Origin: Bacteroidales bacterium
GTDB lineage: Bacteria > Bacteroidota > Bacteroidia > Bacteroidales > UBA932
Assembly (NCBI GenBank): GCA_017453565.1
Contig: JAFTEQ010000063.1
Span: 1-46,948, forward strand
Direction: 5' to 3'
DNA length: 46,948 bases
Shown here: piece by piece, positions 11,650-15,792 of the stretch
Layout of the letters: each line of letters starts with the position of its first letter
Position numbering within the stretch: the first letter of the stretch is position 1
Notes under the pieces: generated by a model
Databases searched by the model: none
What the model was told of the DNA's origin: nothing
What the model saw: only the letters and a program-made list of their open reading frames with translations
Position numbers and translations under genes: made by a program

Positions 11650-11681
11650 TTTGTTTTTTTCTGATCTTTTCCATAGGTTTG
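11650..11681 (+). promoter_or_regulatory. promoter of the trp leader and trpB
   Basis: TTTG (11650-11653) and TAGGTTTG (11674-11681, perfect TAnnTTTG) are 20 bp apart. The leader-peptide ATG is 8 nt past the box, so the leader is translated from almost the 5' end of the RNA. Confidence 0.75.
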
Positions 11682-11689
11682 CAAACGGA

Positions 11690-11743
11690 ATGAGAAAAAG
11701 TAGCAGCATTTTCTGGTGGCGCGCTTGCAGTCAAAAACTGTAA
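11690..11743 (+). CDS. trpL: tryptophan leader peptide
   Basis: This 17-codon frame encodes MRKSSSIFWWRACSQKL, with two adjacent Trp codons at 11714-11719. It ends in TAA at 11741-11743. The stop lies inside the upstream strand of the antiterminator (11738-11747). A ribosome waiting at the Trp codons leaves that strand free. One that reaches the stop covers it and allows the terminator at 11775-11804 to form. This is the logic of ribosome-mediated trp attenuation and fits the Bacteroid-trp RNA class known from Bacteroidetes. The peptide itself probably has no function beyond being translated. Confidence 0.88.
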   Translation: MRKSSSIFWWRACSQKL

Positions 11744-11804
11744 GTCGCACTGCCGTATACTGCACTTTAACCCTGGCACGCCGACTTACGGCGCGCCTTT
11801 TTTT
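11738..11804 (+). terminator. trp attenuator: antiterminator and terminator upstream of trpB
   Basis: Two exclusive structures can form. The terminator is GGCACGCCG (11775-11783) with CGGCGCGCC (11789-11797), nine positions with one A-C mismatch and an ACTTA loop, followed by seven T residues (11798-11804). The antiterminator pairs CTGTAAGTCG (11738-11747) with CGACTTACGG (11782-11791), ten pairs with one G-T, and would destroy the terminator stem. A small hairpin CAGT/ACTG (11728-11740) in the end of the leader frame may act as a pause site. The trpB ATG is 29 nt past the T-run. Confidence 0.88.
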
Positions 11805-11833
11805 ATGCCAACGATCAACAAAACCATAGTAGT

Positions 11834-13198
11834 ATGAGACAGAAAAAGTACCTGCTTCCGGAATCGGAGATTCCAACGCACTATTTCAACATCCAGGCGG
11901 TGATGCCCAACAAGCCCCTCCCCTTCCTGCACCCTGCCACGAGGCAGCCGCTCAAGGCCGAGGACCTCTACCCCATTTTCTGCAAGGCCTGCGCCGACCA
12001 GGAACTCAATCAGACCGACGTCTGGATCCCCATCCCCGAAGCGGTGCGCGAGCAGTACGCGGCCTATCGCTGTACGCCCCTGGTGCGCGCCTATGAACTG
12101 GAGGCGGCGCTGGGAACCCCGGCCCACATCTACTTCAAGAACGAGTCGGTGAGCCCGGCGGGCAGCCACAAACTCAATTCCGCCATTGCCCAGGCCTATT
12201 ATGCCAAGGAGCAGGGCGTCACCAACCTCACTACCGAAACGGGCGCCGGACAGTGGGGCGGCGCACTGAGTTACGCCACCAAGAAGTTCGGCATCGACTG
12301 CGCCGTCTACATGGTGAAAGTGAGCTACGAGCAGAAGCCCTACCGGCGCAGCATCATGCAGACCTTCGGCGCCGCCATCACCCCCTCGCCTTCCATGTCG
12401 ACCCGTGCGGGCAAGGACATCCTCACCCGCAATCCCAACGACCGCGGTTCGCTGGGCTGCGCCATCTCGGAAGCCATCGAGCTGGCCGTCAGCACGCCCA
12501 ACTGCAAGTACGCCCTGGGCTCGGTGCTCAACCACGTGTGCCTGCACCAGACCGTCATCGGGCTGGAAGCCGAGAAACAGATGGCCCTCACGGGCGAGTA
12601 CCCCGACATCGTGATCGCCTGCTTCGGCGGCGGCTCCAACTTCTCGGGCCTCGCCTTCCCCTTCATGCGGCACAAGATCGAGGAAGGGAAGAAGACGCGT
12701 TTCATTGCGGCGGAACCCTGTTCCTGCCCCAAACTCACGAAAGGCGTCTTCGAATACGATTTCGGTGACGAAGCCGGCATGACCCCGCTCCTGCCCATGT
12801 TCACCCTGGGGCACAGTTTCAAACCGGCTTCCATCCACGCCGGCGGCTTGCGCTACCACGGAGCGGGCGTGATCCTCTCGCAGCTGATGAAGGACGGATA
12901 CATGGAAGCCGTCGACATCGAGCAGCTCGAGTCGTTCCAGGCCGGGGTGCTGTTTGCCCGGACCGAAGGCATCATCCCCGCACCCGAATCGTGCCACGCC
13001 ATTGCCGCAACCATCCGCGAAGCGCTCAAGTGCAAGGAGAGCGGAGAGCAGAAGACCATCCTCTTCAACCTCTCGGGACACGGATTCGTGGACATGGCTG
13101 CCTACGACCAGTATTTCTCAGGTGAGATGCAGAATTACAGCGTCTCCGACAAAGAGCTGGCCGGCTTCATCAAGAGCGCAGACGAACTTAACCGCTGA
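11834..13198 (+). CDS. trpB: tryptophan synthase beta chain, class II (TrpB2-like)
   Basis: This 454-residue PLP enzyme joins indole and L-serine to make L-tryptophan. It belongs to the longer TrpB2 group, with an N-terminal extension (ESEIPTHYFNIQAVMP) absent from the classical beta subunit. Seen in the sequence: the PLP lysine in SPAGSHKLNSA, the catalytic Glu in TTETGAGQWGGALS, the phosphate-binding FGGGSNFSG, and the C-terminal ILFNLSGHGFVD. TrpB2 enzymes often act without TrpA, using free indole. No trpA or other trp gene is nearby; the next gene is convergent after 7 bp, so trpB is transcribed alone. It is preceded by a full Trp attenuator, so expression should rise when charged tRNA-Trp is scarce. 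The start follows an AT-rich leader without a clear Shine-Dalgarno sequence. Confidence 0.95.
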   Translation: MRQKKYLLPESEIPTHYFNIQAVMPNKPLPFLHPATRQPLKAEDLYPIFCKACADQELNQTDVWIPIPEAVREQYAAYRCTPLVRAYELEAALGTPAHIYFKNESVSPAGSHKLNSAIAQAYYAKEQGVTNLTTETGAGQWGGALSYATKKFGIDCAVYMVKVSYEQKPYRRSIMQTFGAAITPSPSMSTRAGKDILTRNPNDRGSLGCAISEAIELAVSTPNCKYALGSVLNHVCLHQTVIGLEAEKQMALTGEYPDIVIACFGGGSNFSGLAFPFMRHKIEEGKKTRFIAAEPCSCPKLTKGVFEYDFGDEAGMTPLLPMFTLGHSFKPASIHAGGLRYHGAGVILSQLMKDGYMEAVDIEQLESFQAGVLFARTEGIIPAPESCHAIAATIREALKCKESGEQKTILFNLSGHGFVDMAAYDQYFSGEMQNYSVSDKELAGFIKSADELNR

Positions 13199-13205
13199 GG
13201 GCGCA

Positions 13206-15194
13206 CTATCTGACTTCAAAGATACAGCCGCAGTTGGCCTCCAGCTGAAGCACTCCGTTGAGGATCCTTGCACCCCAGACCTGCCCCACTTTACCGTGGA
13301 CGCTTATGGGACACGCTACGTTTTCTTCAAGGCAATTGATTCCCACGACGAGGGTCGTCCCGTCCGGCTGAGGGTGTTCAGTGAATGTGACGCCAGGGTT
13401 ATCCCGCATAACCCTGCGTACCACCCTGCTCTCGGCTGCCGCCCGTTCGTAGATCCTGTACAGCGGATTGCGTACCTCCCAGGTGAAAATGCCCGCCTGG
13501 TCAACGGCACCATATTCCACGGGAGCATTGACCGCAATGGCCTTGCCTTTTCCGAAAGTGTTCAGCGTTACCATTGGATTGCCGGTTTTATCCTTTGCCA
13601 GCACCTTGGCCGTGGTGGGGCGCCAGAGCGACACGGCACTGTCCCTTGTTTTCAAAGTCTCGGCAGGCCTGTCCTCAAAGGCGAATTCGGACACCCGGGC
13701 TTCACGGTAATTCGCCTCGATCCGCACGCCAAACACATCTTCGAACTCACTCAGTCCGGCCATACCGCCGCCACGGGTATAAAGCAGGGTCGCTCCGTTT
13801 TCAGCGATGCGTTTCTTGAGTTCTGTCCACATGGACATGGGGAAGACGTTCCACCCCTCGGAAGAGGGAAGGATGTAGAAGCTGGCATCGGGAAGCGGAT
13901 GTGCCGCGCCGGTAAACGCAATATCGAAGCCGGCCTGGCGGGCAAGGCAAAGCGCGGCAATGGGCATGGGCCAGGCGTCTTTTGTTTCGGGCAGGATGAC
14001 ATAGGCATCAATCTGCCGGGGTGGGAGTTTGGAAAAAGGCAGGCTGCGACGGAACTCGTTGAAGCGTTTCATTGCCTCCAGTTCCGGCAGCGGCTTATGA
14101 TCCCTGGTGGTCATGCCCAATTCCCGCTCCATCATATTCCAGCTGTAGGGCGGAAAATCCAAATGACTTTGGTCGTAGGCACACCAGTACAGATGTCCTG
14201 ACAGTCCGTCGGCCCAACTCTGGAAATACTGCATGGTGAGCATCTTGGCCGCGCGCTCGTGGGACATGATGTTGGGGCCCATGCTACCACATTCTTCGCC
14301 AAAAGCAGGTTTACCTGCAATCCCTTCATACATAAGGCACTGTGCAGAAACGTGATTGGCATTCCTGAGGCCGTTGCCCGGTTCCCGGTTTGCCTCCGGC
14401 CTGAATCCGGGATAAGGATGCGGGGTGAGGATATCAAGCAGTTCACCCTGGGTCTGCAGGTTCCATTTGTCCCACACCCCCGTGGACTGTCCGTGCATTC
14501 CGGATATGACCGGCCGGCCGGGATCCTCCAGGCGGATGGCGGACGAAATGGAATACAGCCACTGCCAGGCCTGATGGGGGTTCTCCACACCGCCCATACA
14601 GTTGCATTCATTGCCAAGGTCCCAGGCGGCGATGGCAGGGTGGTCCTTGAGTTCTCGTACAAAGCGGCGTACGAAGCGCACCTCCCACATTATGGCCTCG
14701 GAATTGCTGATGACATTGACTCTCTGCAGAGGTTCAGGGACAAAAAGCCTCGAACTCATCCAACCTGTGATGATTGAGGGAATGACCTTTACCCCATACT
14801 TTGAGCAACAGTCACAAAGGAAACGGAAACGGCCGATCATCTCCATGTCCACTCCGTCGGGGTCGGTCAAGGGGCCGCCATTCATTCCGTATTCCATGAA
14901 ACTGCCACGGATTCCGTAGAACATAGTGATGGGCTGGAACAGGTCCCAACGCGGAAAGCAGCGGATTACCTGCACGCCGTTCTGTGCAAGCGTACGGATA
15001 TCCAGATCGATGCTTTGGGGATTCCACCTGTTCCACATTTCCGTGGCGCTTTCACTGCCCCAGTAGTTGACCCCGGTGAAGAAGCTACCCTTTTCAAAGA
15101 GTGCATCCGGCATAGGATCTTTCTGGCTTTTGGCCGGTGCCGAGAAAGAGATTGCCAGAGCAAAAAAGAGGAGGAGATGTTTGTAACTGTTCAT
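13206..15194 (-). CDS. secreted GH5-like glycoside hydrolase
   Basis: This 662-residue exported enzyme has a signal peptide (about 1-23, ending PAKSQ) and a TIM-barrel glycoside hydrolase domain of clan A type, nearest to GH5-like families (about 30-400). The likely acid/base is Glu196 in WDLGNECNCMGG, and the nucleophile is Glu300 or Glu301 in AFGEECGSMG. 'TPHPYPGF' has the usual aromatic/His lining between them. A second domain (about 430-560, starting IDAYVILPETKDAWPM) looks like the glutamine-amidotransferase-fold domain seen after the barrel in beta-galactosidase-type enzymes. A beta domain ends the protein. The substrate is unclear: a beta-mannoside or beta-galactoside is plausible. I chose the ATG at 15194 because it starts the signal peptide. 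No SusC/D pair is adjacent. Confidence 0.8.
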   Translation of the reverse strand: MNSYKHLLLFFALAISFSAPAKSQKDPMPDALFEKGSFFTGVNYWGSESATEMWNRWNPQSIDLDIRTLAQNGVQVIRCFPRWDLFQPITMFYGIRGSFMEYGMNGGPLTDPDGVDMEMIGRFRFLCDCCSKYGVKVIPSIITGWMSSRLFVPEPLQRVNVISNSEAIMWEVRFVRRFVRELKDHPAIAAWDLGNECNCMGGVENPHQAWQWLYSISSAIRLEDPGRPVISGMHGQSTGVWDKWNLQTQGELLDILTPHPYPGFRPEANREPGNGLRNANHVSAQCLMYEGIAGKPAFGEECGSMGPNIMSHERAAKMLTMQYFQSWADGLSGHLYWCAYDQSHLDFPPYSWNMMERELGMTTRDHKPLPELEAMKRFNEFRRSLPFSKLPPRQIDAYVILPETKDAWPMPIAALCLARQAGFDIAFTGAAHPLPDASFYILPSSEGWNVFPMSMWTELKKRIAENGATLLYTRGGGMAGLSEFEDVFGVRIEANYREARVSEFAFEDRPAETLKTRDSAVSLWRPTTAKVLAKDKTGNPMVTLNTFGKGKAIAVNAPVEYGAVDQAGIFTWEVRNPLYRIYERAAAESRVVRRVMRDNPGVTFTEHPQPDGTTLVVGINCLEENVACPISVHGKVGQVWGARILNGVLQLEANCGCIFEVR

Positions 15195-15211
15195 TTTAAC
15201 CGATTTTTTGT

Positions 15212-15219
15212 CAAATATA
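15212..15219 (-). promoter_or_regulatory. -7 box of the glycoside hydrolase gene
   Basis: Minus-strand TATATTTG, a perfect TAnnTTTG match, 17 nt before the ATG at 15194. No convincing -33 element was seen. Confidence 0.5.
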
Positions 15220-15310
15220 ACCATTCTTTCCGACTTGGTGACCATCACCGACGCCATCAGTTTTTGTGGAAAAATTTGTAAGCAAGTGGAAGAAAATGGA
15301 AAATTATTTC

Positions 15311-15318
15311 TATCTTTG
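15311..15318 (+). promoter_or_regulatory. -7 box of the dcw operon
   Basis: TATCTTTG lies 21 nt upstream of the mraZ ATG. A clear -33 element at the expected distance is missing. It is the only recognisable promoter box ahead of a 20-kb run of closely packed genes. MraZ binds DNA repeats in front of its own operon in other bacteria, but I could not pick out such repeats here with confidence. Confidence 0.6.
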
Positions 15319-15339
15319 TGCCAATTGCGTATAAGAATT

Positions 15340-15792
15340 ATGGTCACGTTTATCGGCGAATATACCTCCAGGGTTGACGACAAGGGAAGGCTGGTCTTTC
15401 CCGCGGCGTTCAAGGGGGTATTGCCGCCGGGAAGCGATATGAGGTTCGTCATCAAGAAAAACCTTTTTGAGCCTTGCCTGGAGATGTACACCTACGAGGA
15501 GTGGGAGCGCAAATCGGGCGAGGTCCTGGGAGCCCTCGACATCAACTTCAACCGTAAGCACGCACTATTCTGGAGAGAATACATGCGCGACTGCGACATC
15601 GTGGAGCCCGATCCCAAACTCGGGCGCATTTCCATCTCGCGCAAACTTCTCGACGCGATCGGTGTCAACAAAGAAGTGGTTTTCTCCGGCAATGGTTTCA
15701 GAATCGAGCTCTGGGCTAAGGAGAATCACGAGTCTTCCCGGGTATCCGACAACGAAATCATTGCCATAGCGGAAAGCCTCTCGAAGCGATAG
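15340..15792 (+). CDS. mraZ: transcriptional regulator MraZ
   Basis: MraZ is an AbrB-fold DNA-binding protein that forms rings and controls the dcw operon it heads. The 150-residue protein has two tandem SpoVT/AbrB-like halves. The first starts FIGEYTSRVDDKGRLVFPAAFK (the DxKGR signature); the second carries 'EPDPKLGRISISRKLLDAIGVNKEVVFSGNGFRIELWA'. The ATG at 15340 is chosen because it begins the conserved FIGEY segment and follows a -7 box at 15311-15318; upstream in-frame codons would lie in the promoter. It is 13 bp from rsmH. Length and position at the head of the cluster are normal. Confidence 0.96.
   Translation: MVTFIGEYTSRVDDKGRLVFPAAFKGVLPPGSDMRFVIKKNLFEPCLEMYTYEEWERKSGEVLGALDINFNRKHALFWREYMRDCDIVEPDPKLGRISISRKLLDAIGVNKEVVFSGNGFRIELWAKENHESSRVSDNEIIAIAESLSKR

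Follow-up and report, generated by a model that had tools for sequence, protein, structure and literature searches.

A putative tryptophan attenuator, probably kin of the Bacteroid-trp family, in front of a stand-alone trpB2 gene in Bacteroidales

The trpB2 locus and its leader

The DNA segment considered here (the window, i.e., the whole analyzed stretch of 46,948 nt) is contig C40 of a Bacteroidales genome of 1.95 Mb that is 76.5% complete. At positions 11834..13198 of the plus strand it harbors trpB2, which encodes a TrpB-like PLP enzyme of 454 residues. This product scores 693 bits with NF009057 (cut-off 366) and 588 bits with TIGR01415 (cut-off 519), while the score with the TrpB1 model TIGR00263 is 147 bits, below the cut-off of 392. 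With its own models above their curated cut-offs and the TrpB1 model below, it is placed in the TrpB2 family, which bears out the initial annotation of a TrpB2-type gene behind the leader. Among solved structures, the tryptophan synthase beta chains 6hul_B, 4qys_B and 6hte_B come closest to it, and the closest named relatives, found in rumen Bacteroidales MAGs, are at most 93% identical (records of the own genome were possibly excluded from this comparison). The gene upstream of the leader is a divergent radC. A 761-residue frame on the minus strand (13206-15491) is convergent with trpB2; it has no NCBIfam match and a sub-threshold match to Pfam Glyco_hydro_42.

The sequence between radC and trpB2 starts with two promoter elements, read from the sequence on the plus strand, i.e., TTTG of the -33 type (11650..11653) and TAGGTTTG of the -7 type (11674..11681; consensus TAnnTTTG). 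Both fit the Bacteroidota -33/-7 consensus printed in PMC7366714, and transcription presumably starts upstream of the leader. A leader ORF of 17 codons on the same strand (11690..11743, ATG at 11690; peptide MRKSSSIFWWRACSQKL) contains the tandem Trp codons TGGTGG at 11714-11719 and ends in TAA at 11741-11743. The stop codon is located within region 2 (11737..11747), which can pair either with region 1 (11723..11731, with 11737-11745) or with region 3 (11782..11791, with 11738-11747). The latter helix, the antiterminator, has ten pairs, one of which is T-G. Region 3, its 3' strand, resides within the terminator hairpin 3:4 (11775..11797, strands 11775-11783 and 11789-11797, one A-C mismatch), which is followed by seven T residues (11798..11804). 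Because the antiterminator and the terminator have bases in common, they are mutually exclusive.

All elements that the initial annotation had described, i.e., the promoter, the 17-codon leader with two adjacent Trp codons, the stop codon inside the antiterminator strand, the ten-pair antiterminator and the exclusive terminator with its T tract, are found in the sequence. The 1:2 hairpin is an addition and completes the classical 1:2/2:3/3:4 set. The locus has two features of classical trpL-type attenuators, i.e., a short ORF with tandem Trp codons adjoining region 1, and an exclusive antiterminator and terminator plus a U tract. The RNA from 11688 to 11806 has a minimum free energy of -44.8 kcal/mol compared to -30.3 ± 3.5 kcal/mol for shuffled sequences (z = -4.2; 0 of 200 as good), and the minimum-energy fold is that with 1:2 and 3:4, i.e., the terminated form.

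The leader ATG is found 8 nt past the -7 box. Among 75 leaders of the genus with an in-frame ATG, a -7-like motif, loosely defined, is located within 32 nt in 63, of which 42 (42/75) have the box 5-9 nt before the ATG. The strict motif TAnnTTTG is seen at 31 of 76 loci flagged by the detection script, a count that includes one false locus (L155), as compared to 3.8 expected from mononucleotide shuffles. The spacing suggests that the mRNA of the leader peptide is nearly leaderless. In B. thetaiotaomicron 5' UTRs shorter than 10 nt are rare, about 3.7% according to PMC7366714, and the Sinorhizobium meliloti rnTrpL RNA is described in PMC7298713 as likewise beginning near its ATG.

Distribution of the leader and of tryptophan genes in the genus

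A first set of 41 genomes, including the own genome, yielded a TrpB match in 34; in the full set of the genus, trpB2 was identified at E 1e-60 or better in 124 of 151 genomes. The leader survey covered 98 further loci in addition to 23 earlier ones, i.e., 121 loci in 120 genomes, and left out four genomes carrying 3' fragments of trpB2 alone. The survey reached 260 nt upstream of trpB2 at the 23 earlier loci and up to 360 nt at the 98 new ones, but only 81 nt at L200. A WW-type leader with a terminator behind it precedes trpB2 at 76 of the 121 loci, and the remaining 45 have trpB2 without such a leader. Script-flagged leaders were re-read where doubtful, upon which one was dropped and one added, leaving the total at 76; the errors of the script were a false leader (L155), a missed one (L185) and a wrong ORF (L136). 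A convincing antiterminator was absent in four distant cases (L085, L087, L111 and L113). In six genomes (G022, G021, G204, G190, G141 and G189) the TrpB2 match crosses one in-frame stop, which may mean that the match overruns the C-terminus or that the gene is broken.

The trpB2 leaders fall into two main sequence classes and a small third. In class A, to which the window belongs, the antiterminator strands read, for instance, TGTAAGTCG/TGACTTACA, and in class B CCGGTCAG/CTGTCCGG. In the class A alignment (39 sequences) the 1:2 and 3:4 helices are paired in 91.8% of cells, with a covariation of 0.262 compared to 0.159 after shuffling (0 of 500 as high), while for 2:3 pairing extends to 97.4% of cells and covariation is weak (0.090 compared to 0.081; 44 of 500 as high). 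In class B (26 sequences) the corresponding values are 86.2% and 0.289 compared to 0.171 for 1:2 and 3:4, and 83.4% and 0.215 compared to 0.092 for 2:3 (0 of 500 as high in both cases); one inner pair of the class B 2:3 helix is broken in 21 of the 26 sequences. The paired percentages are biased upward, because sequences were assigned to classes by their motifs in regions 2 and 3, and the shuffles ignore ancestry. A slid-column control, which retains ancestry, also favors the true register, but is itself tilted that way because the structure was read off the same sequences. A lack of covariation in related genomes had been named at the outset as an observation that would speak against the attenuator; clear covariation is seen in all helices but 2:3 of class A. 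The fold compared to shuffles, the genus-wide leaders and this covariation together back the tryptophan attenuator proposed in the initial annotation.

Directly upstream of trpB2, 22 of the 45 leaderless loci and 10 of the 76 leader-bearing loci have the end of a gene that was recognized by eye, through a motif, as sdhC-like. The two groups thus appear to have part of the trpB2 neighborhood in common, within which the switch comes and goes. Examples of a leaderless trpB2 behind the sdhC-like gene are L221, L140 and L213, and in several such loci a plain terminator is found in between. At L014 and L016 the leaderless trpB2 follows a frame resembling, by eye, a candidate threonine aldolase.

The own genome has no match to trpA, trpC or trpD, nor to tryptophanase; since it is only 76.5% complete, these absences are weak by themselves. 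In the genus, trpA and trpD are each found in 22 of 151 genomes, with 21 genomes common to both sets, trpC in 11 of the 41 genomes that were searched for it, and tryptophanase in 39 of 151. Of the 62 genomes with a completeness of at least 90% and a contamination of at most 5%, 56 have trpB2 and 9 have trpA, leaving trpA unmatched in 53. The claim of a single gene without trpA is thus upheld, and is widened to trpC and trpD in the own genome and to the genus counts. Judging from this gene content, most members of the genus seem to lack de novo synthesis of Trp but keep TrpB2; because most also lack a tryptophanase match, indole from outside is the likely source of substrate for most of them.

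Leaders were counted at 71 of 102 trpA-minus loci compared to 5 of 19 trpA-plus loci (raw counts; Fisher p = 0.0006). A tie between the leader and loss of trpA is not claimed: of the 8 independent pairs on the TrpB2 tree (101 rows), about 1 to 2 are informative, and these point mostly in the expected direction but are too few to reach significance. Among 50 named genomes, 11 trpA-minus and 5 trpA-plus genomes have the leader, and 11 and 23, respectively, are without it, a count with the same few-pairs flaw; here L085 was script-flagged but scored as none, and some of these genomes duplicate members of the genus set (L054 and L007, as well as L073 and L132, are located on contigs of equal length).

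Relation to Bacteroid-trp and to trp-operon leaders

The initial annotation had assigned the element to the Bacteroid-trp class. The Rfam model RF01692 (cut-off 49 bits) does not match the window copy at E values up to 10, and has no match in the own genome. All nine above-cut-off matches that were seen precede trpB1, and sub-threshold matches before trpB2 were found at L216 (42.8 bits) and L336 (39.2 bits). Among the 16 matches in 50 trpB2-bearing genomes, ten precede trpB1, including all six above the cut-off, one (L336, below the cut-off and identical to part of L119) precedes trpB2, and the other five precede neither gene within the stretch examined. Hoylesella oralis, a genome without a trpA match, has a sub-threshold match of 39.7 bits (L334, G078:C4:1922416-1922540).

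A covariance model built from class A, R1, finds 59 places in 51 of the 151 genomes. Its 39 training rows recur among the matches, and its 40 strong trpB2 matches are these rows plus one duplicate and therefore do not offer independent support. One further strong match precedes a trpB1 start in G197, a 47-residue fragment at a contig end, recognized as trpB1 by TIGR00263 (E 0.0025) and by tblastn matches to other trpB1 genes (E values as low as 6e-11). The 18 weak matches comprise seven before trpB1 in other genomes (in G012 the trpB1 assignment is also by position), three before third-class trpB2 and eight before neither; of seven of these eight that were examined, three lie over tRNA-Phe genes and at four nothing was recognized, and the eighth is located at a contig end.

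The seven trpB1 leaders of the genus that were read carry WWWR (six) or WWR (one) and have the same build as the trpB2 leaders. With E values up to 1, RF01692 matches five of these seven (49.8, 40.1, 38.8, 35.9 and 35.7 bits) and one of 13 trpB2 leaders scanned alongside (L216, with the score given above). In BLAST comparisons, the trpB1 and trpB2 leaders of G154 are 79% identical over 109 nt (E 4e-19), and the trpB1 leader of G197 is 71% identical over 150 nt to the class A trpB2 leader of G161 (E 2e-11); the leader in the window is not among the matches linking the two groups. By these alignments, some related trpB2 leaders are homologs of the leaders found at trp operons of the genus. The Bacteroid-trp assignment is thus borne out only in part: the Trp attenuator in the window is not a member of RF01692, but is probably kin of that family, having moved to another gene.

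On the TrpB2 tree (101 rows), at least 12 changes in leader presence are counted and, for 57 rows, at least 8 shifts between classes A and B. These repeated changes indicate that leaders turn over faster than the gene, hinting that the leader was swapped or re-evolved repeatedly while trpB2 stayed. A more specific history, which we offer tentatively, is that an attenuator of the trp operon was copied to a position before trpB2 and outlived the operon; throughout this large genus of rumen and gut Bacteroidales the de novo pathway would have been mostly lost, and the retained switch would now drive indole scavenging.

Proposed function, alternatives and comparison with known systems

Our preferred reading, held with a probability of roughly 0.8, is that trpB2 stands alone under the control of a tryptophan attenuator operated by the ribosome. 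The classical scheme is deduced from the anatomy of the leader; the behavior of the ribosome, the response to Trp, the substrates and the source of indole are all inferred. When charged tRNA-Trp is scarce, the ribosome would stall at TGGTGG and cover region 1, which would allow 2:3 to pair, block the terminator and let trpB2 be transcribed. When Trp is plentiful, the ribosome would reach the TAA codon and block region 2, upon which 3:4 would form and transcription end about 30 nt before trpB2. Without translation, 1:2 and 3:4 would form, with the same outcome. The enzyme would then use imported indole, together with serine (or O-phosphoserine), to generate Trp, a reaction reported for other TrpB2 enzymes in PMC11917138. 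That this unit serves indole salvage is rather likely, and is consistent with the enzyme class and with the missing pathway.

The attenuator could be real and TrpB2 still not serve salvage, if trpA-F reside in the portion of the genome absent from the assembly and the enzyme takes part in full Trp synthesis, or if it uses another acceptor. The incompleteness of the own genome leaves room for this scenario, and trpA does coexist with a leader-bearing trpB2 at 5 of the 76 leader-bearing loci. However, in addition to the trpA, trpC and trpD genes that find no match in the own genome, 53 of the 62 near-complete genomes of the genus are without a trpA match, the trpA and trpD sets overlap in 21 of 22 genomes each, and a leader with TGG codons before trpB2 argues for Trp as the product. 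We regard this scenario as unlikely.

It is far less probable still that the structure is a plain intrinsic terminator next to a small ORF that arose by chance. Such terminators do occur at several of the leaderless loci in which trpB2 is found just behind the sdhC-like end (22 of 45), but in the window the upstream radC is divergent, so that no terminator is needed on the trpB2 strand. Furthermore, the WW codons, the promoter and three helices occur together, also in relatives, and the covariation contradicts an origin by chance. Finally, by analogy with rnTrpL/peTrpL of S. meliloti, the terminated leader RNA or the peptide might also act in trans. With its ATG 8 nt past the -7 box and a strong terminator at its end, the leader would yield a short RNA starting near the ATG, as described for rnTrpL in PMC7298713; we nevertheless consider this additional role improbable.

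Returning to the attenuator before trpB2, the locus appears to present a real tryptophan attenuator, i.e., a known mechanism in a new place. A Trp-starvation switch at 71 trpB2 loci in genomes without a trpA match offers good regulatory evidence for Trp as the product of TrpB2 in apparent auxotrophs. In this gut-type bacterium trpB2 is the sole gene recognized for making Trp; the switch would probably let the cell build Trp from outside indole only when Trp is short, and it makes the idea of indole salvage directly testable. It also offers an example of a regulatory RNA that moves from one gene to another, and leads one to expect cross-feeding of Trp and indole in rumen and gut communities.

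The element resembles Bacteroid-trp RNA (RF01692, which Table 1 of PMC2864571 lists as cis-regulatory) in its WW/WWW leader, in the hairpin over the Trp codons and in its occurrence in Bacteroidota. It differs in that the above-cut-off matches seen precede trpB1, whereas the window copy, before trpB2, is unmatched. The enterobacterial Trp_leader model (RF00513, cut-off 41 bits) gives weak matches to the window (21.8 bits, the best of the weak Rfam matches there), to L142 (30.0 bits) and to L137 (35.9 bits), all below the cut-off; that leader belongs to another phylum and controls the trp operon. The enterobacterial leader and the element in the window follow the same 1:2/2:3/3:4 logic.

In Corynebacterium diphtheriae, PMC1262725 describes a candidate Trp attenuator ahead of a gene also named trpB2, in trpB2A; there trpA follows in the operon and a second operon, trpB1EDGC, is present, whereas in the window trpB2 stands alone and trpA, trpC and trpD were not found. 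A literature search that covered a minority of subscription papers turned up no description of such an attenuator for a trpB2 standing alone in Bacteroidota. What TrpB2 does next to TrpA, or in its absence, has been open to debate. Work by Hiyama from 2014 reportedly ascribes both biosynthesis and indole salvage to the TrpB2 of Thermococcus kodakarensis, i.e., the enzyme is said to act on free indole, as is predicted for the TrpB2 described here.
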